Of a stretch of 30,854 nucleotides of DNA, positions 15,060 to 30,329 are shown in pieces; within the stretch, counting starts at the first letter, position 1, and each line of letters begins with the position of its first letter. The DNA comes from a virus: the IMG/VR virus record IMGVR_UViG_3300027525_000023, positions 1-30,854 of that record; one strand, 5' to 3'. The position numbers and the translations under genes are program-made. Below the pieces are notes generated by a model. The model worked only from the letters and a program-made list of their open reading frames with translations. It made no database searches and was not told the DNA's origin.

Positions 15060-15107
15060 ACTTGTTAAGACTATTATACACATAAGTAAAATAGTTGTCA
15101 AGTGTTA
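15060..15107 (-). promoter_or_regulatory. Sigma70-type promoter for the head-fibre/tail genes
   Basis: On the minus strand TTGACA (15096-15101) and TATAAT (15073-15078) are separated by exactly 17 bases. Transcription should start near 15066, about 30 bases before the ATG at 15034. Flanks are also conserved: the 20 bases at 15060-15079 match 27763-27782 (small-terminase promoter) with one difference, and the 12 bases around the -35 box are identical, so this is a repeated promoter cassette rather than a chance match. Confidence 0.85.
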
Positions 15108-15113
15108 AAGAGA

Positions 15114-15141
15114 TAGAGGAGGAGATTTCTCCCCTCCCCTT
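15114..15141 (-). terminator. Possible terminator or attenuator after the major capsid gene
   Basis: Read in the minus-strand RNA, GGGGAGGGGAG AAAU CUCCUCCUCU folds into a stem of about six pairs (one G-U), a mismatch and three further pairs, starting about 13 bases after the capsid stop codon. A short pyrimidine-rich tail (AUCUCUUUAAC) follows, not a clean U-run. The place between the highly expressed coat gene and a fresh promoter suits a partial terminator that lowers read-through. The weak U-tract keeps this tentative. Confidence 0.45.
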
Positions 15142-15153
15142 GTATTTATGTTA

Positions 15154-16098
15154 CTACGCCAATGGCTTTGTAACAACAGAAACCAAGTTTTCTGGACGGT
15201 ACAGTTTAAGACCGTAACGTGCAGTAGTAACAAACTCTGTACGTTGGTGATCTTTGTTGTACTCAGTGTCCACATTTGGCATCTGTCTCCATGCACCAAC
15301 GAATGGCTGCACTGCTTGGTCAGCAGAGAAGAACATGTTGTTGATTGCGTTAGCTGGAGCAGCTACACCACTGATAGTTTCTGAAGCTTTTGTAGCTAAG
15401 TAGTTAGATGTGTATACATCGAAACCATAGATGTTAGCTATAAAGGACATGCCAGAAGCAATACCTGAGTTGACGATACCTTCCCAACGTGGGTTGTTTG
15501 ATACACTTGTTAAGTTTGAAATTGTATTCATTTCAAATTCAACTGATGGATCAACAATAGCCACTAGGTTCTTCTGTGGTACTTTACCAGTTTTTAATGC
15601 ACGAAGAGCTTTAGCAAAGTCTTCAACTGCAATTTTACCACCAGTACCTGAACCGATCATACGGTGAGCAACACCGTTGATAGTGTTAGGATCAGCAGCT
15701 GTTTGCTCTTGACCTAACTTCATGATGTCTGTCTCTAGACGTTCCATTAAGGCACGTTCTTGTAGAGGCACAAACTGAGACATGATCTGATTTGAGTAGT
15801 ATACATCCTGCATCGCCTTGTTGGTGATGTAGTTACCAGCCTGTAAGTATTCAGTGATGGTGAATGTAAACTGTGCATCATCAATCGGATCGTATGTTAC
15901 AGCAGCATCTTCAGTGTAGTCATTAACAGTTGCATCACCTAATGATGGGATCTTAAACGTGTCCCCATCTGGAAAGTCATTCAACCAATTTACGTATTTC
16001 ATACCTTGCAGCTCATCCCGCAAGATCTCTTTTAATTCTGCACCCCAAACTTCTGCTCTTTTTGCGAGAGCTAGAGTACTTACTGTATTACCAGCCAT
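15154..16098 (-). CDS. Major capsid protein, HK97-fold type
   Basis: The protein has 314 aa, with start at 16098 behind AAGGA. It follows a scaffold-like gene by 11 bases and begins MAGNTVSTLALAKRAEVWGA, without a long delta domain, as in phages with a separate scaffold. The N-arm contains FKIPSLGDATVNDYTEDAAV, then QFTFTITEYLQAGNYITNKA (E-loop/spine-helix-like region). The central helix QFVPLQERALMERLETDIMK precedes the axial part (LVAIVDPSVEFEMNTI, FIANIYGFDVYTSNYL). The protein ends RTEFVTTARYGLKLYRPENL, a C-terminal pattern I recognise from marine podovirus coat proteins. It forms the icosahedral shell around the scaffold. Confidence 0.87.
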   Translation of the reverse strand: MAGNTVSTLALAKRAEVWGAELKEILRDELQGMKYVNWLNDFPDGDTFKIPSLGDATVNDYTEDAAVTYDPIDDAQFTFTITEYLQAGNYITNKAMQDVYYSNQIMSQFVPLQERALMERLETDIMKLGQEQTAADPNTINGVAHRMIGSGTGGKIAVEDFAKALRALKTGKVPQKNLVAIVDPSVEFEMNTISNLTSVSNNPRWEGIVNSGIASGMSFIANIYGFDVYTSNYLATKASETISGVAAPANAINNMFFSADQAVQPFVGAWRQMPNVDTEYNKDHQRTEFVTTARYGLKLYRPENLVSVVTKPLA

Positions 16099-16109
16099 AG
16101 TTCTATTCC

Positions 16110-16877
16110 TTATCTATAAAATTTATCACCCAAACGTTCGGCATCAGCCATCATTGCACGTTGAGTAGATGGTTTGTAGTATTGTGACGAGTTTTCTCTT
16201 CGAAGTCTTTGATAGTAGCCAAAGTCTTTTTCAGAGGATGCTTGCATTGTAGAACCTTCAGTGCGAATGCTCCCTTGAACCATTGGTGAAATACTCGGTG
16301 CTGACTTACCCATCAACTGCATAAACGCAGCAGGTGACTTAGCAGCCATACCTTGTAACTCATTCATTGGCAAACCTAGTTCAGAAGCTTTCTGTTTTAC
16401 AGCAGAAGATGCTTCAGTCCCATAGGCTTTTTCAAGTTCCGATTCAACGATTGCAATGTTATTCTTTGCAGAACTCTCTTGCTCTCGCCTCTTCAGGGTC
16501 TGTTCTACTAGGCTCTCAATGTTTGCTTCACTCGAACTAAACTGGGTATTAGCTGTATTCGAAGTGCCACTATTATTATTATTAGGATCAGGAAGTTCGG
16601 CTGTGGTTGCCGAGGCCATTTCTTCCATCTTAGCTGTAACTCCAAGTCTGTAGGCTTGTTTCTCTAGGTCAGCTTTTAAAGTAGCATTCTCTTGTTTCAT
16701 TTGTTCAATGAACTTGTCTGCTTCTAACTTTCCTTTTGCTAACGCCTCTACATCGTTGAACTTACGTCCGTCTCCTACAAGATCACCCAAGACTGAAGGG
16801 CTGGTTGGCTCTTCAAATGCTGATACTTGTTCACTCTGTGTTGCAGGGGTCACCTGATCCTCAGAAAATACACTCAT
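16110..16877 (-). CDS. Capsid scaffold protein
   Basis: The protein has 255 aa, is acidic and Gln/Glu/Ala-rich, and contains GDGRKFNDVEALAKGKLEAD followed by KFIEQMKQENATLKADLEKQ, the usual helical wording of scaffold proteins in marine podoviruses. After an Asn/Ser/Thr-rich linker (PDPNNNNSGTSNTANTQ) come further helices and a basic C-terminal end (RAMMADAERLGDKFYR), where scaffolds of this type contact the coat protein. The gene sits between portal and coat genes, the canonical place. It should guide procapsid assembly and leave before packaging. No protease domain is seen. Confidence 0.8.
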   Translation of the reverse strand: MSVFSEDQVTPATQSEQVSAFEEPTSPSVLGDLVGDGRKFNDVEALAKGKLEADKFIEQMKQENATLKADLEKQAYRLGVTAKMEEMASATTAELPDPNNNNSGTSNTANTQFSSSEANIESLVEQTLKRREQESSAKNNIAIVESELEKAYGTEASSAVKQKASELGLPMNELQGMAAKSPAAFMQLMGKSAPSISPMVQGSIRTEGSTMQASSEKDFGYYQRLRRENSSQYYKPSTQRAMMADAERLGDKFYR

Positions 16878-16879
16878 TG

Positions 16880-17122
16880 TTATTCCTTATCTAAGTTAAT
16901 TAGATCCAACACAGTGGTCACTGCTCTGTTGTATCCGTTTCGATCTGCCTGTTTATAAGCCCAAGAAGGGGAATCATAATCATTTGCAGGGGTTGTATCC
17001 TTTAGCATAGGCTCTAGGATTTCTTTAAGACGGTCTAATCCCTCTCTCTGAGATTGCAGTGTTTGTGCTACCGCCTCTTTATCTTTCTTTGTCTTACAGT
17101 CTTTGAACCAAGCTGCCTTCAT
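16880..17122 (-). CDS. Small helical protein between portal and scaffold
   Basis: The protein has 80 aa and is charged (MKAAWFKDCKTKKDKEAVAQ at the start). A helical segment QSQREGLDRLKEILEPMLKD precedes YDSPSWAYKQADRNGYNRAV and TTVLDLINL. It overlaps the portal gene by four bases (ATGA-type junction) and ends two bases before the scaffold gene, so it is translationally coupled to both. Small proteins of this kind are frequent beside the portal in T7-like marine phages and have no assigned role. I see no metal-binding or DNA-binding motif. Confidence 0.7.
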   Translation of the reverse strand: MKAAWFKDCKTKKDKEAVAQTLQSQREGLDRLKEILEPMLKDTTPANDYDSPSWAYKQADRNGYNRAVTTVLDLINLDKE

Positions 17123-18912
17123 TCAATAGGCTCCTCAGGAGCTTCCTCAGTAGCCATCTCTAGCTCTTGGCTACCCTCTTCTATTTTTTCTTCTTGATCA
17201 GCCTCATACTCAACCTGTGCCTCTGTGACAACCTTCTGAGTCTCTAGTTGTTCAGATACTGCAACGTTCTCACCAAATAGAGCTGGTTCACCTAGTTCAT
17301 CAGCTAACAATCTAGCAAACTCTTTACCTGATAGATGTGATGCAACACTTGGGTCAGATGCTTTGATCTGGTACATAGTAGTTAGGTTCTGTACACGTTG
17401 TGCTCTTTCAGCAAAGTGTCTAGCACCCATCGGTACAATCTTACCGTTAGACTTAATGTCATCTCTTGTAATCTGTGTGAAGAAATACAAACCAGTATCT
17501 TCATTTAGTACTTTAGCTGTATCTTCGTAATCCATGTTACGTCTAGATACTTCTAGCATAGCATTTAAGATTGGCTCTAAGAATACTCTCTCGAAGTGAG
17601 CAGTCTTGTGCTGGAATATTCTACCTGCTGCAGTCATAAGCTGACTAACTTCAAAGGCTGTCTTCTCACCTGCACTACGGATACCCATAGCTTCTCTTGG
17701 TGCTCCAGCCATCATCTCCATCTTAGCTTCTAGGTTCTGTATTTGGAAGTCAGCATTCAATGCTGTACTGTCAGGTACTAAGTAACCTACATCACCTTCA
17801 TCTCCTAAGTATATACGGGCATTAGGTTCGAAGTCAAAGTCCTCTACGTCACCTCTTATCTTTAAGACAGGATAAGCTATCTGATCAAATACATCTGCCT
17901 TGAGGTTCTCTAAGTGATCTATTCTGTACTGCATACCAACTAAGTTATCTAGTGGTCCCATGCTGTACAAGTTATCTGGTCTGTCTCTCCATCCTACGTG
18001 GAAGATAGGATCTCTACCTAAGAAACTAGGGTTCTCTTCATTAGATAAAACGTAGGCTCTATCAACGATAGTAATAACTCTGTTGTTTAAGAACTCACCC
18101 TTTTGTGTATCGTAGATGTCACCATAGAATGTTAGTATTTCTACGTAGTCAGATTCATAGTAATCAGTTAAGTTAGAGAAACCATCAGCTACAAAACCTT
18201 CTGACTTATCTACATCTACTTCGTTACCTTTAGCTGATCCTCTATTGCCGAGCATCTTATCAAACACACCACTCATGTAGTCTTTGTCAGGTGATGTCTC
18301 AACCATACGTTGTACTTCACCTAAGGTTAGAATAGATCTAACAATCTTTGGTGTATCTGAGAACTCAGCAGCTACTGGGTTAAAGCAGATATCAAAAGGT
18401 GAGATACGTACTAGCTTAGGTCCTACGTAGTTAACTACTCTGTCACCATCTTCAAAGTTAGTAACTTTTCTTTTGAAGTCAACAGTAGCAAAACAGTTAC
18501 CGTATTGTATGTAGTCGTTGATAAGTTTACTTGTTGTGTTAACAAAGTCAGATTGACTTAGCTTGTTCTCCATGTATGCTTGTATGATGTCTCGTTTAAT
18601 CTTAACATCTGATGCTGCATCTGTAGCTTCAAACCTGAACCATCTTTTCTGAGGAAACAATGCAGCAAAGTAGTTAGCATGTAGGTTGTCAGCAATCTGT
18701 GTTAACTTAGGTGTAGTCGTTGAGTTAGACCAAGGTAACTTATTGTTACTAGTTGTTCTAGTATCTGTAGCATAGATATAGTTACGTAACTCTTTCCACT
18801 CTTCTAACTTAGAAGAACGAGAGCTATTCCATGAAGACCAACGGTTAGCTATTTCCACAGCTAGGGTATGAGGATCTATAATACTTTCAATGTCAATAGT
18901 AGTGCCAGCCAT
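17119..18912 (-). CDS. Portal (head-tail connector) protein
   Basis: The protein has 597 aa. ATG at 18912 follows a TTGGAG ribosome-binding site. Features typical of podovirus portals include an N-terminal helical region (EIANRWSSWNSSRSSKLEEW), the KLPWSNSTTTPKLTQIADNL segment with the following AALFPQKRWFRFEA, and YIQYGNCFATVDF. Later come GVFDKMLG and IDHLENLKADVFDQIAYPVL, then AGAPREAMGIRSAGEKTAFE and EVSQLMTAAGRIFQHKTAHF leading into the long C-terminal helices, ending in a very acidic tail (EEAPEEPIE). Twelve copies would form the ring at one capsid vertex through which terminase pumps DNA. Order terminase-portal-scaffold-coat supports this. Its own promoter carries operator-like palindromes. 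Confidence 0.85.
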   Translation of the reverse strand: MAGTTIDIESIIDPHTLAVEIANRWSSWNSSRSSKLEEWKELRNYIYATDTRTTSNNKLPWSNSTTTPKLTQIADNLHANYFAALFPQKRWFRFEATDAASDVKIKRDIIQAYMENKLSQSDFVNTTSKLINDYIQYGNCFATVDFKRKVTNFEDGDRVVNYVGPKLVRISPFDICFNPVAAEFSDTPKIVRSILTLGEVQRMVETSPDKDYMSGVFDKMLGNRGSAKGNEVDVDKSEGFVADGFSNLTDYYESDYVEILTFYGDIYDTQKGEFLNNRVITIVDRAYVLSNEENPSFLGRDPIFHVGWRDRPDNLYSMGPLDNLVGMQYRIDHLENLKADVFDQIAYPVLKIRGDVEDFDFEPNARIYLGDEGDVGYLVPDSTALNADFQIQNLEAKMEMMAGAPREAMGIRSAGEKTAFEVSQLMTAAGRIFQHKTAHFERVFLEPILNAMLEVSRRNMDYEDTAKVLNEDTGLYFFTQITRDDIKSNGKIVPMGARHFAERAQRVQNLTTMYQIKASDPSVASHLSGKEFARLLADELGEPALFGENVAVSEQLETQKVVTEAQVEYEADQEEKIEEGSQELEMATEEAPEEPIE

Positions 18913-18934: not shown

Positions 18935-18971
18935 TGTGATAATTATATCACAGTGTGATAAATATGTCAAC
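18935..18971. promoter_or_regulatory. Tandem operator-like palindromes over the portal promoter
   Basis: TGTGATAATTATATCACA (18935-18952) is an inverted repeat with perfect 7-bp arms covering the -10 box. A second, imperfect copy, TGTGATAAATATGTCAAC (18954-18971), covers the spacer and -35 box. The overlap region also gives a 15-base palindrome, TATCACAGTGTGATA (18946-18960). A dimeric regulator bound here would block RNA polymerase. Near-identical sites occur at 28016-28106. Confidence 0.7.
18942..18970 (-). promoter_or_regulatory. Perfect sigma70-type promoter for portal and capsid genes
   Basis: Minus-strand TTGACA (18965-18970) and TATAAT (18942-18947) are separated by 17 bases, a full consensus match. 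The start of transcription is expected near 18935, about 23 bases before the portal ATG. It lies in the 61-base gap between the large terminase and portal genes. Unlike the other two perfect promoters it lacks their shared flanking sequence and instead is covered by palindromes. Confidence 0.85.
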
Positions 18972-18973
18972 AT

Positions 18974-20539
18974 TTAAAATGCTACTCCACCAAACTTAGG
19001 GTGGAATACGACATTATTGTCGGTTTTGTTTCTTCTAATTGCTGACATGCTCGGTTTAATTGCTACCTCAACGGCTGCAGCTAAACAGTCTTTACAGTCA
19101 TCATGTGCTGGATTGTAAGATACTAGTTCTTCTTCTAGTACCTGACAGTTACCACCTCGGTAATGATACATTTGTAAGTTGTCGTACCTTGGTTCAAGAG
19201 CAGCAGCTATACGTTCCTCTTTAGAACCTTGGTGACGGTTAGGTCTATGCTCATCAATCTTTAAAGCTAGACCGTTAGGTTTAATGTAGTTATCTTTTAA
19301 CTCTGTTACGATGGCTGACTGAGCAGCTGTACATTCAGCTCGTAGCTTTCTGAAGTCCCATCTATTAAGTAAGTCTAGGATGTGTCTAAAGTACTCAGAG
19401 ATCTTATCTGTCTTAAATCTATCAATGTCTAAGACATAAACGTTATTCTCAAAGTCAACACCTATTACAACAATAGCTGTGTAGTCAGCTCGTTTACTTA
19501 CACTGTAGGCAAAGTCAACTGCTGCACTAACGTTTAACTTTCTACCTTGATACTGCCACTGACCATTATCTCTATTTAAATGTTTACGGTCATAGTACTG
19601 GAACTTCTCATAGGCTATAGGTTGTGTATCTGGATCTGTTGGATCGTTGTAGTACTGTGCTCTAAACTGTACCCTGTCTAGGTACTGACCTCTCTTCTTA
19701 GCTAAGATCTTAATGTCAAACCCAAAGTACTTACCATCTTTACGTAGTTGTCTAGGCCAAAGGAAATCACCTGTCCCATCCCCTCCGTCTTCTACTGCTC
19801 TCTCTAGTACTTCATAAATATTTTCTTTACCTGTTAGTTCGCCCTTGTCTGAGTATATATCTTCTTCCATACCCATCAAGTCAGAGTACAAGTCCTTAGG
19901 GTGATACCTAGTACCTACTACCCATTCCTTAGCTTCACTACCCTCAATAGATGATAGGAGTGAGTACTGTGACTTAACCTTGTTTCGTCCCTCACCAGTG
20001 TAAGCATTCTCAAAAACAACTACGTCATCGAGTACAGCAATATCGCAGTGCATCCCTGTAAGAGAAGTAGTAAGGCCACCAGTGAAAATAGACGGGTCAC
20101 GTATTGCTTCTTTCTTTCTGTCAGGATGGTCTAAAGCAATCTCTGAAGTAGTCCACTTCTCTCGTTTACTTTCATCTTTGTTTAAGTGTTCAGGCCAATA
20201 CTTTTGGTGTATGTCTGATTCGAATATGTTTTTAATAAACGAGAGCTGTTTCTGAGCTAAGTTAGATGTAGCTGAGATGTATAGAATCCTTAGGGTAGGG
20301 TTCTTAGTTAATTCCCAAGCAACCCTGTAAGCTACCATAGCTGACTTACCGTGATCACGAGGGAACAAGAGAAGCTGGTGTGTCTTAGAATCTTGTCTAG
20401 TCCACCACTTACAAACATCCTCATGGCAGTTACCTAGTACACGTTGTGGTGCAACTAGTTTAATGAAGGTAATGAGACTACGTTCAGCAGCCTCTCTTAT
20501 TTCATGGATGGTTGCCATACTATACTGCTGTTGAACCAC
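18974..20539 (-). CDS. terL: Terminase large subunit (packaging ATPase and nuclease)
   Basis: The frame gives 521 aa from a GTG at 20539. The ATG at 20518 (514 aa), directly after the upstream stop, is an equally good start and avoids a 20-base overlap. The ATPase shows a Walker A-like PRDHGKS (residues 60-66) and Walker B DIAVLDD (166-172), with WVVGTRYHPKDLY further on as coupling region. The nuclease domain shows AAVDFAYSVSKRADYTAIVV (D342), LRAECTAAQSAI (E402) and a late HDDCKDCLAAA, the usual acidic triad of the RNase H-like fold. It cuts concatemeric DNA and drives it through the portal. The gene is separated from the probable small subunit by the whole adhesin island. Confidence 0.92.
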   Translation of the reverse strand: MVQQQYSMATIHEIREAAERSLITFIKLVAPQRVLGNCHEDVCKWWTRQDSKTHQLLLFPRDHGKSAMVAYRVAWELTKNPTLRILYISATSNLAQKQLSFIKNIFESDIHQKYWPEHLNKDESKREKWTTSEIALDHPDRKKEAIRDPSIFTGGLTTSLTGMHCDIAVLDDVVVFENAYTGEGRNKVKSQYSLLSSIEGSEAKEWVVGTRYHPKDLYSDLMGMEEDIYSDKGELTGKENIYEVLERAVEDGGDGTGDFLWPRQLRKDGKYFGFDIKILAKKRGQYLDRVQFRAQYYNDPTDPDTQPIAYEKFQYYDRKHLNRDNGQWQYQGRKLNVSAAVDFAYSVSKRADYTAIVVIGVDFENNVYVLDIDRFKTDKISEYFRHILDLLNRWDFRKLRAECTAAQSAIVTELKDNYIKPNGLALKIDEHRPNRHQGSKEERIAAALEPRYDNLQMYHYRGGNCQVLEEELVSYNPAHDDCKDCLAAAVEVAIKPSMSAIRRNKTDNNVVFHPKFGGVAF

Positions 20540-23424: not shown

Positions 23425-25728
23425 TTATCCAAATACCATTGCCATAGCAATTGCTTTGCCTGTTGTTATTCCACCACCGCCACTTGATGGTGTAGCAAAG
23501 GCTAAACTGCCACTACCGTTAGTCGTTAAAACCTGTCCATTAGTACCATCTGAAGTAGGTAACTTATATGCGCCGTTAATCTGAACTGTATCGTTTGCAC
23601 CACCAATAACAATTCTGTTTGCACTTGAACTTTGTGCTTGTCTCCCAATAGCTATACTGTTGGTACTTGTAGCTCTTGCGAGTTCACCTATTGCAACACT
23701 ATGAAGGCCTGATGCACCATAACTTCCTCCTGAGTTAGCTATTTGAAGTGCTATACTATCTTCTCCAGCTGCCCTAGAACTACCTATAGCAATTGCCCTG
23801 TCAGCATACGCCTTTGCATTCATTCCTAATGCCAAAGATTCTTCGTGTGTTGCTGATGCGTTAGCACCCAAAGATACTGCTGAGTCTCCAGCCGCCGTTG
23901 AACCACCACCCATTGCAATTGCATTATCTCCAGTTGCGTTTGGTCCAAATCCTATTGAGACAAAGTTTTCATCATATAAACCTAATGTCGTACCACCGCC
24001 AGAAGCCGCCGCCCAAGTCAAACCACCTGTATTTCCTGACTGTGCTGTTAGGACATATCCGTTTGTTGGTGTATTACTTACCTTTAAGTTTGCTTCGTCA
24101 ACTACATTATCAGCTATTACTGTTGCACCATCGGATGTCGATGTGACTTCGCCTGTGTGGTTTGGGTGTGTATAAGATGCACCATCAGCCCCATCTGCTC
24201 CGTCAGCTCCGTCAGCTCCTGCTGGCCCAGTAGCTCCTGTTGGTCCCTGAGGCCCTGTAGGACCTGCTACTGTACTATCTGCACCATCAACCCCATCAGC
24301 CCCATCTGCTCCTGCTGAACCAGTAGCTCCTTGTATTCCTTGTGGACCTTGCGGGCCAGTTGCACCAGTAGAACCTGTAGCTCCATCTGTTCCATCTGTT
24401 CCATTTGTTCCTGCTGGACCTTGTGGTCCTTGAGGACCTGTAGCTCCTGTCGGCCCTGCTACTGTAGAATCTGCTCCGTCACTTCCATCAGCACCTGCTG
24501 GTCCTGTTGCTCCAGTAGCTCCTTGTGGGCCTGTCGGTCCAGTTGCTCCATCAGTACCATCTGTTCCGTCTGCTCCTGCAGGACCTGTCAAGCCTGTAGC
24601 TCCATCAGTTCCGTCAACACCATCAGCCCCTGCTGGTCCTTGTGGTCCTGTATCTCCAGTTGCTCCAGTTGCTCCCTGTGGTCCAGCCACTGTACTATCT
24701 GCCCCTTGTGGTCCTGTAGGGCCTTGGATACCTTGCGGTCCTGTAGGACCAGTATCACCCGTTGCACCCGTTGCACCATCATTACCGTCTGCTCCTGCTG
24801 GACCTTGTGGACCTGTAGCTCCAGTAGCTCCTTGTGGTCCAGCTACTGTACTATCTGCTCCTTGTGGTCCTGTAGGGCCTTGGATACCTTGAATGCCTTG
24901 TGCTCCATCTGCTCCATCATTTCCTGATGGACCTTGCGGACCAGTTGCTCCTGTCGGTCCCTGAGGTCCTGTATCTCCCTGAGGACCAGTTGCTCCAGTT
25001 GGACCAGCTACAGTACTATCTGCTCCTGCTGGACCTTGTGGACCTTGGATACCTTGTGCTCCTGTAGCTCCAATTGGTATCCCAAAAGAAAAAGCCCCTG
25101 TACCATTTGTTGCTGTTACAGAAGCTGTTGCTGATGATCCTGTAGATAAAGTGCTTACAGATACTGTTGCATCAGTTATTACATCTACAGCTTCAGCCGC
25201 ATTCTTAGCTACAACAGCCGCATCCCTTGCAGTCTCAGCACCAGTTTTTGCAGTCTCAGCAGCTGTAGCACTTGATGCACTTTCTGATGCTTTAGTTGTT
25301 GCTGTAACTGCTGACGCAGCAGCATTTGTCTCAGCAGTCTCAGCTCCAGTCTTAGCTGTCTCAGCTGCAGTCTGTGCAGTTTGGGCAGCAGTTTTAGCTG
25401 CTTCTGAAGCAGTCTGTGCAGTCTCAGCATTTGTTTCAGCAGTTTCAGCATTAGTCTCAGCAGCTTCAGCCGCAGTCTGTGCATCTTGAGCAGCAGTCTT
25501 AGCTGTGTTAACATCTGCTAGATAGTCTGTACCGTTAACTAATAAACCAGAAGCACCAATAAGGTTGTTACCATTCAGGTCTAGATCAGCCTCCATAGCA
25601 TTTGGAGTACTGCCGTCCAAAGACAGAGTATTATCAAAACCCTCTTTTAAATTCTCAAAGTTAGTATTTAAAACATCTGTGGAGTTAAAACCAGATGCTA
25701 ATGTAGTTACCGTTGGTTTCTTAGCCAT
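23425..25728 (-). CDS. Collagen-like trimeric tail fibre with YadA-type head repeats
   Basis: The protein has 767 aa. Residues 1-70 are an adaptor domain shared with the fibre gene at 26161-27165 (both contain [16 protein letters not shown]). Residues 72-183 are an alanine/threonine-rich coiled coil ([18 protein letters not shown] and similar). Residues 220-517 are Gly-X-Y collagen-like triplets, interrupted five times by STVA inside [10 protein letters not shown] linker ([16 protein letters not shown]) follows, then residues about 590-712 with YadA/Hia-type head repeats ([58 protein letters not shown]), and a C-terminal [16 protein letters not shown] domain. All parts are trimeric, so a long homotrimeric receptor-binding fibre is expected. 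No self-cleaving chaperone domain is visible. Confidence 0.85.
24178..25071 (-). repeat. Collagen-type Gly-X-Y coding repeat
   Basis: About 300 codons of the fibre gene encode Gly-X-Y triplets ([20 protein letters not shown] and variants). At DNA level this is a degenerate 9- and 18-base repeat rich in Gly and Pro codons. It is prone to length change by slippage or recombination. Long open frames on the opposite strand in this stretch are by-products of the repeat. Confidence 0.85.
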
Positions 25729-27166: not shown

Positions 27167-27658
27167 TCAGTTCACTAACCCTATCCTTGCTGCATCATCT
27201 TTAGTTTCTGCTTCATTACGAGCAGCATCCTTCAAGGCTCCATCTAATTCTTCTCTAGATGGTCTACCTCGTTTCTTATCGTTACCTTCTAAGTAACCAG
27301 CATCAGCTAAGTACTTCTGAGCATTGTAACTGGCTTTACCCTCATTAAGATCATTGATCATGTTCTTAACTGTTCTAGCCTTTAACTTCAGTACTAACTC
27401 TTTCTTCATCTGAACATGATGTTTCTTAAACCATATCAGGTTACACAGGTTTTCCCAAACAGAGAAGTCACCAAACACAGACATTGCAAATTCGTACTCT
27501 GTTGGGTCTTCCATATCAATATAGATCTTATGAAGGGACCTGTAGGTAGTACCAGATACTTTGTGGTCTTTCTTCTTTAAAGAATATAAAGTTAACTCGT
27601 TTCTTGTATCTGGTAGTGTAGTCTCATAGAACCACGTCTTACTAGGTTTCTTAGCCAT
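27167..27658 (-). CDS. terS: Probable terminase small subunit
   Basis: The protein has 163 aa, basic and helical, and is the first gene of the leftward late unit. The second half (KLKARTVKNMINDLNEGKAS, YNAQKYLADAGYLEGNDKKR, GRPSREELDGALKD) matches the wording around the C-terminal helix of small terminases in marine phages, where a K/R-R-G-R-P-S segment follows a helical DNA-binding and oligomerisation part. A classical helix-turn-helix is not obvious in the N-terminal half (LYSLKKKDHKVSGTTYRSLH). It would recognise phage DNA and load the large subunit. Distance from terL (over 6 kb) is unusual but the strong promoter in front fits a late packaging gene. A regulator is the alternative. Confidence 0.6.
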   Translation of the reverse strand: MAKKPSKTWFYETTLPDTRNELTLYSLKKKDHKVSGTTYRSLHKIYIDMEDPTEYEFAMSVFGDFSVWENLCNLIWFKKHHVQMKKELVLKLKARTVKNMINDLNEGKASYNAQKYLADAGYLEGNDKKRGRPSREELDGALKDAARNEAETKDDAARIGLVN

Positions 27659-27710: not shown

Positions 27711-27797
27711 ATGTATCTGTTACTACTAACAATAGTACTTATGTTTATATACTCTCAGGCTTACTTGTTAAGAATATTATACAGGTGTTTGTATTAG
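27711..27797 (+). CDS. Candidate 28-residue membrane peptide
   Basis: ATG at 27711 follows a strong ribosome-binding site (GGGAGAAGGGATAAG). The frame reads MYLLLLTIVLMFIYSQAYLL and eight more residues (RILYRCLY) to a TAG at 27795-27797. The first 20 residues are almost wholly hydrophobic, followed by a basic end, the profile of a single-pass micro-protein. It lies antisense to the small-terminase leader and overlaps that promoter. No promoter for the plus strand is clear, so it may be an accident of sequence. Confidence 0.25.
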   Translation: MYLLLLTIVLMFIYSQAYLLRILYRCLY

Positions 27798-27807
27798 TTG
27801 TCAAGTA
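27763..27807 (-). promoter_or_regulatory. Perfect sigma70-type promoter heading the leftward late unit
   Basis: Minus-strand TTGACA (27799-27804) and TATAAT (27776-27781) are separated by 17 bases. Transcription should start near 27769, giving a leader of about 110 bases before the ATG at 27658. The -10-to-start sequence is the same cassette as at 15060-15079 (one difference in 20 bases). The long leader has no visible terminator but leaves room for post-transcriptional control. Confidence 0.85.
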
Positions 27808-28015
27808 CTAATTTATTATTTATTTAAATTAACTTGTTTTAACCCTCTGTACTCATTACTAAGACCAGTAGGATTGCTAAGGGGTATACAGGTCCCTTTT
27901 GAGCCAAAGTTCTTCTATACTATTACTAGGGGGTTTTAGATCGTGTCCAAGATTTCTGTTAGTAAATATTTTTGTGTATTGTACATACAAGAGGCATACC
28001 CCCTAACCCCCTCCC

Positions 28016-28106
28016 TGTGGTATAAATGTCACACTGTTGTAAAAATAATACATGCAATCCCTCTGGCTGTGGTAATTATGTCACACTGTGCAGCATATAT
28101 GTCACA
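28016..28106. promoter_or_regulatory. Cluster of operator-like palindromes
   Basis: TGTGGTATAAATGTCACA (28016-28033) and TGTGGTAATTATGTCACA (28068-28085) are imperfect inverted repeats. A third site at 28089-28106 (TGCAGCATATATGTCACA) keeps the right half well and the left half poorly. The right-hand 10-mer ATGTCACACT is identical in all three. Start-to-start distances are 52 and 21 bases, close to five and two helical turns. The second site differs from the portal operator at 18935-18952 by only two symmetric A/G changes. Confidence 0.65.
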
Positions 28107-28251
28107 CTCTTGGATGCGGTGATACGTCCACAACATCAACCACAACTACTAACCCATTGATTAAATTTAATTAACTATGTTAACCAACTAATAAAACTAT
28201 TTAATTATATTAACTGTTTTAATATTGTTTATAAATTAATTAAATTAATGC

Positions 28252-29561: not shown

Positions 29562-30329
29562 ATGAATATATTAAGTTTATTTGATGGTCTATCTTGCGGG
29601 CAAATTGCTTTAAATAATATTGGTATTAAACCAAGTAAATATTATGCGAGTGAAATAGATAAGTATGCAATCAAGGTAAGGGATAAAAACTTTCCTGATA
29701 CAATTGATGTCGGAGATGTCACAAAAGTTTGTGCAGCAAAATTGTCACACATAGATTTATTGATTGGTGGCAGTCCATGCCAAGGTTTTAGCCGTGCCAA
29801 TGGTGGTAAAGAATTAAACTTTGATGATCCAAGGTCAAAGTTATTCTTTGAATATGTTAGGTTACTAAAAGAATTAAAACCTAAGTATTTCTTACTGGAA
29901 AATGTTAGCATGAATAAAGAAAGTTTAGATATAATATCTGAACAACTAGGCGTGCAACCAATCATGATAAATTCTGATAGGTTTATTCAACAGAATAGAA
30001 AGAGATATTACTGGACTAATATTCCACTAGGTGAGATACCTTCAAGACCTGAGTGGCAAGGTAACTTTTATCAATGGCGTAGGACATACTACAGAAAGAA
30101 TAAGTCTGGGGTATCACCTTGTTTGACTGCTAACATGGGTACAGGTGGACACAATGTTCCTTTAAAATCTGAGAACAAACAAGACAAGCTAACACCTAAT
30201 GATTGTGAAGCATTGCAAGGTATACCACAAGATTATACTAGTGGGGTTAGTAATTGCCAGAGATACAAAATGATAGGCAACGGTTGGACAATACCAGTAA
30301 TAGAATTTATATTGAAAGGGATAAAATAA
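29562..30329 (+). CDS. Solitary DNA (cytosine-5) methyltransferase
   Basis: The protein has 255 aa and nearly all core motifs in order: motif I (LSLFDGLSCGQIAL, residues 4-17, S-adenosylmethionine site), motif IV (GGSPCQGFSRA, catalytic C73), motif VI (ENV, 114-116), motif VIII (QNRKR, 144-148), a short target-recognition part (about 150-208, including PCLTANMGTGGHNVP), motif IX (LTPNDCEALQGIP) and motif X (GNGWTIPVIEFI). It methylates carbon 5 of cytosine in double-stranded DNA. The target site cannot be read from sequence. No restriction endonuclease gene is next to it, so protection against host restriction or marking of phage DNA is more likely than a complete restriction-modification system. 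It is short for the family because the recognition region is small. Confidence 0.93.
   Translation: MNILSLFDGLSCGQIALNNIGIKPSKYYASEIDKYAIKVRDKNFPDTIDVGDVTKVCAAKLSHIDLLIGGSPCQGFSRANGGKELNFDDPRSKLFFEYVRLLKELKPKYFLLENVSMNKESLDIISEQLGVQPIMINSDRFIQQNRKRYYWTNIPLGEIPSRPEWQGNFYQWRRTYYRKNKSGVSPCLTANMGTGGHNVPLKSENKQDKLTPNDCEALQGIPQDYTSGVSNCQRYKMIGNGWTIPVIEFILKGIK

Follow-up and report, generated by a model that had tools for sequence, protein, structure and literature searches.

A conserved operator-like palindrome over the head-gene promoter of siovirus-like cobaviruses

Head-gene unit and promoters

The analyzed stretch of DNA (30,854 nucleotides, hereafter the window) is a fragment of an SIO1/P12053L-like cobavirus (Zobellviridae), a marine virus infecting Roseobacter-type bacteria. 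Its portal, terminase, and coat genes are homologous to and syntenic with those of SIO1, P12053L, and ICBM1, which places it among the Siovirus-like Cobavirinae; the portal protein is 88%–91% identical to those of the isolates, and the collinear DNA is 78%–79% identical. The gene order, the portal promoter, and the palindrome described below are the same in SIO1, P12053L, and ICBM1 as in the window (Table 1). The 767-aa product of a tail-fibre-like gene (23425-25728) contains long collagen-like Gly-X-Y repeats. In the early region, a DNA methyltransferase gene (29562-30329) lies near a GP88-like gene and a gene whose small, Cys-rich product resembles a zinc ribbon. The zinc-ribbon gene recurs in the closely related contig G014, in whose early region a methyltransferase was not seen.

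Table 1. Features of the head-gene locus and related sites, in window coordinates
Feature	Position	Strand	Remarks
Promoter of tail genes	15073..15101	-	Perfect; no palindrome
Terminator-like hairpin closing the head unit	15115..15140	-	11-bp stem, -18.9 kcal/mol, z -3.8
Major coat gene	15154..16098	-	phrog_267, E 5e-43
Scaffold gene	16110..16877	-	phrog_7931 (unknown function); by synteny, ICBM1 homologue annotated as scaffold
80-aa gene	16880..17122	-	phrog_8956 (PHROGs), no function assigned
Portal gene	17119..18912	-	597 aa; head-tail adaptor/connector, phrog_332, E 4e-107
Portal ATG	18912	-	29 bp downstream of promoter
Operator-like palindrome O1	18935..18952		TGTGATA-ATTA-TATCACA, 18 bp, over -10 and start region
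Portal promoter	18942..18970	-	-35 TTGACA 18970-18965, 17-bp spacer, -10 TATAAT 18947-18942; exact consensus
Claimed second operator, over spacer and -35	18954..18971		Direct-repeat copy at 19 bp; not conserved
Terminase gene	18974-20539		PHROGs
Promoter of first late genes (small-terminase candidate, fibres, terminase)	27776..27804	-	Perfect; no palindrome
Operator-like iterons, terminal-repeat region	28016..28106		At 28016, 28035, 28068, 28089

The first-pass annotation had described a consensus-perfect portal promoter with a palindrome over its -10, and two further perfect promoters free of such a site; all of these were recovered. With a spacing of 15–19 bp allowed, the window contains 3 perfect promoters against 0.03 expected, a number reached in none of 100 shuffles. 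The terminase/fibre and tail promoters of P12053L, ICBM1, and SIO1, which lack the palindrome, have TGTGTATAATAGTCTTAACAAGTCTCCCCT in common. The stretch TATAATAGTCTTAACAAGTCTCCCCT, running from the -10 into the start region, is identical at both operator-free promoters in these three phages, and this extended sequence is possibly a late-promoter signature. Siovirus-like cobaviruses appear to rely on consensus sigma-70 promoters.

The coat gene is followed by a terminator-like hairpin and, directly after it, the next perfect promoter. A similar hairpin with a following promoter recurs in relatives, including the veraviruses ICBM2 and CRP-5. Since the terminator after coat is conserved, the portal, 80-aa, scaffold, and coat genes form one unit. 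The earlier proposal that portal, scaffold, and coat are singled out for control therefore holds as regards their own promoter, its operator-like palindrome, and the conserved terminator, but not as regards two operators. No terminator was found on the coding strand between terminase and portal; readthrough is therefore possible, repression would be partial, and some head protein could be supplied even under repression.

In ICBM2 and CRP-4, as well as in relatives L065-L080, terminase and portal are directly adjacent, so that a portal promoter would have no space between them. Veraviruses manage without the portal promoter and operator, so the operator-controlled promoter belongs to the siovirus-like side. 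The operator was also not seen in the region upstream of the portal gene in T5S1.

Conservation of the palindrome over the -10

Judged from the window alone, O1 is only mildly improbable and not overwhelming: a 7-4-7 inverted repeat occurred in 0.7% of shuffles of the 61-bp intergene, and any repeat with 7-bp arms and a spacer of 0–8 in 5%. It is the comparison with relatives that makes O1 convincing. Upstream regions of relatives were retrieved from IMG/VR via the portal protein and then by a DNA pattern specifying solely the terminase C-terminus and the -35, so that invariance of the -35 is built into the search. One unrelated match was set aside, and 32 distinct promoter haplotypes were kept.

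O1 was found in all 32 haplotypes, with seven of seven arm pairs complementary in 23 and six of seven in the other 9. Pair 1 was complementary in 30 haplotypes, pair 5 in 25, and pairs 2, 3, 4, 6, and 7 in every one. Pairs 6 and 7, which coincide with the -10 or its neighbour, carry little information by themselves; the -10 reads TATWAT in nearly all relatives. Pair 4 is G:C in 25 of the 32 haplotypes and T:A in 7. The mean number of arm matches was 6.72, compared with 6.02 when right arms were re-dealt among haplotypes (maximum 6.41 in 2000 re-dealings), a control that ignores the kinship of the haplotypes. On the portal-gene tree, pair 4 switched from G:C to T:A three times, with three changes in the left arm and three in the right, all of them joint; with only three independent events of this kind, a sign test lacks power (p 0.25). 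For pair 5, the tree requires a minimum of 7 changes in the left arm and 8 in the right, and joint counting gives 10, so some of them coincide. Arm positions 1–3 underwent one change over six columns, while the spacer columns had 1–10 changes each (mean about 6). O1 thus shows the dyad symmetry over a promoter, conserved with compensatory change, that a repressor operator would have. An Rfam search gave no match.

A second palindrome, over the spacer and -35, had also been claimed. As sequence it exists: the 15-bp palindrome TATCACAGTGTGATA (18946-18960, plus strand) is present in the window, and the copies at 18935 and 18954 form a direct repeat with 19-bp spacing. It is not conserved, however, since this middle palindrome has seven of seven pairs in just one of the 32 haplotypes, the window's own, and 1 to 6 of 7 in the rest. 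Its -35-side arm is the complement of TTGACA, and the spacer half-site recurs in some relatives. Two tandem operators are therefore not upheld, and the second would be at best weak and lineage-specific.

Proposed repression and alternative readings

The conserved, covarying palindrome is best read as a site of head-gene repression, with head production held back by a probably viral protein. We consider it likely that O1 serves as the operator of a dimeric protein, probably one encoded by the phage, so that the head unit stands behind a strong, repressible promoter and the other promoters are free. A dimer recognizing a half-site of about TGTKDTA would bind O1 and exclude RNA polymerase from the portal promoter, as the palindrome buries the -10. 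The portal, 80-aa, scaffold, and coat genes would then be under a dedicated promoter, strong yet repressible, and this control would not extend to the terminase/fibre and tail promoters. Head production would be delayed until the protein is removed, diluted, or titrated, and early repression followed by late release would be the natural reading of an operator over the -10.

Among the phage proteins examined, none fits the distribution of the operator. The early protein with an HTH_39 domain, the sole clear Pfam HTH protein in P12053L, was rejected as the repressor due to a mismatched distribution: it was not found in contig G002 nor in the examined early region of G012, although the operator is present in both, and it does occur in ICBM2, where the operator is missing. 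The small, acidic, helical gp28 was rejected as well, having no Pfam match, a low-confidence model (pLDDT 71.6), and no PDB fold match. By gene content, gp20, gp24, gp28, and gp46 are absent from three veraviruses, and none is convincing as a regulator. The first late gene (27167-27658) possibly encodes the small terminase. The best match of its product was the phage protein 2ao9, and it was weak (Foldseek E 0.2, VIA Z 4.3, model pLDDT 67); the small terminase was discarded as the repressor in view of this match and of contig L168, where the terminal-repeat iterons are of another type and the portal operator is ordinary. A conserved AT-hook-like stretch, RGRPS, distinguishes the siovirus versions of this product from those of veraviruses, which lack it.

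That no phage regulator emerged from these candidates favors reading of O1 by a host transcription factor, through which the phage would sense the host state at the head promoter. We regard this as unlikely. The spacing misfits CRP, whose site is TGTGA-N6-TCACA, while O1 has TGTGA-N8-TCACA. For the two main half-site classes, TGTGTTA and TGTTGTA, exact consensus sites were sought in 296 genomes from the family that includes Ruegeria sp. ANG-R; the window itself belongs to a further class, TGTGATA. TGTGTTA-N4-TAACACA had 0 matches and TGTTGTA-N4-TACAACA had 1, with controls of the same order. This near absence argues against a conserved host regulon on the perfect consensus and would favor a phage-encoded regulator; a host factor using degenerate sites would be consistent with these counts.

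The other two alternatives appear less probable still. In transcripts reading through from terminase, O1 could fold into an RNA hairpin and affect processing or portal translation; a 7-bp stem does form in such RNA, and pair 4 is complementary in all haplotypes. This role is very improbable, since pair 5 is mispaired in 7 of the 32 haplotypes with just one G-U, positions 1–3 hardly change, a constancy not demanded by pairing alone, and transcripts from the portal promoter itself, given its expected start, would hold at most the right arm of O1. Half-sites in the haplotypes with mispaired pair 5 remain of the same kind, and the variation of O1 seems to resemble that of a protein-binding site more than that of an RNA stem. 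Equally improbable is that the symmetry is a by-product of common descent combined with the demands of the promoter and start region (extended -10 TGn, A/T-rich discriminator). Arm pairs 6 and 7 do lie in or adjoin the -10, the haplotypes are related, and the joint pair-4 switches number just three, but the right arm is missing at the other two strong promoters, and pair 4 never switched on one side only. All three readings are less well supported than a repressor operator.

Repression of phage promoters by operators placed over them is typical of lambda CI/Cro and P22 Arc/Mnt. The likeness lies in a short palindrome for a dimer that buries a sigma-70 promoter element; in contrast, the cobavirus site is on a head-gene promoter, the phages are treated as lytic, and a tandem array at the promoter is not supported. 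In T7, too, the coat gene (gene 10) sits in a unit that has a promoter to itself and ends in a terminator; T7, however, relies on a phage RNA polymerase and has no operator, whereas the cobavirus promoters are of the consensus sigma-70 type. Transcriptional repression aimed at phage capsid genes is known for CapR, a PLE-encoded repressor of ICP1 capsid expression with a Zn-finger domain (PMC10448857). CapR is encoded by a satellite, while the cobaviruses themselves maintain the site. A satellite repressor acting on the portal operator by analogy with CapR is conceivable, although compensatory change that keeps such a target intact would be unexpected in a phage. Operators over phage promoters are familiar, and a satellite-encoded capsid-gene repressor is already known (PMC10448857).

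Terminal repeats, two gene arms, and a bidirectional terminator have been described in cobavirus genomes, and the consulted portions of that description contain no mention of the portal palindrome or the iterons (PMC6775973). A literature search found no transcription study of these phages, and no mechanism timing the head genes was found in the literature examined on siovirus-like cobaviruses. The conserved, covarying operator is a concrete, mutable site for asking whether such phages delay capsid production, and its regulator, if found, would provide an entry point to gene timing in a widespread group of marine phages.

Iterons of the terminal repeat

The window equivalent of the ICBM1 direct terminal repeat (about 27979-28150) contains tandem imperfect palindromes. 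The portal operator was the top-scoring site in every examined genome whose sequence covers it; with a matrix built from portal half-sites alone, a terminal-repeat site ranked second in most genomes covering that region. A pattern widened after the terminal-repeat sites had been seen gave 35 matches in the repeats of ten siovirus-like genomes, which is 44 times the density elsewhere, compared with about 2 in shuffles; these genomes are related and represent fewer than ten independent observations. The same pattern had no matches in ICBM2 or CRP-5.

It is tentatively suggested, though we doubt it on balance, that the portal operator and the iterons are recognized by a single phage protein, which each replicated genome end would titrate, so that head-gene transcription is freed in proportion to packageable DNA. 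A shared protein, if real, would directly link replication, the packaging site, and capsid supply, and the related iterons offer a testable link to replication or packaging. Contigs L168 and L219 have other repeats in this region; in L168 (2200-2450) they are a different repeat pair, AGTTAATGTGATGGATTAACT, although the portal operator of this contig belongs to the common class. Iterons and operator therefore need not share a protein. Most relatives have a TGTTATANTATAACA-like palindrome near the right end of the terminal repeat, where the window has another iteron.
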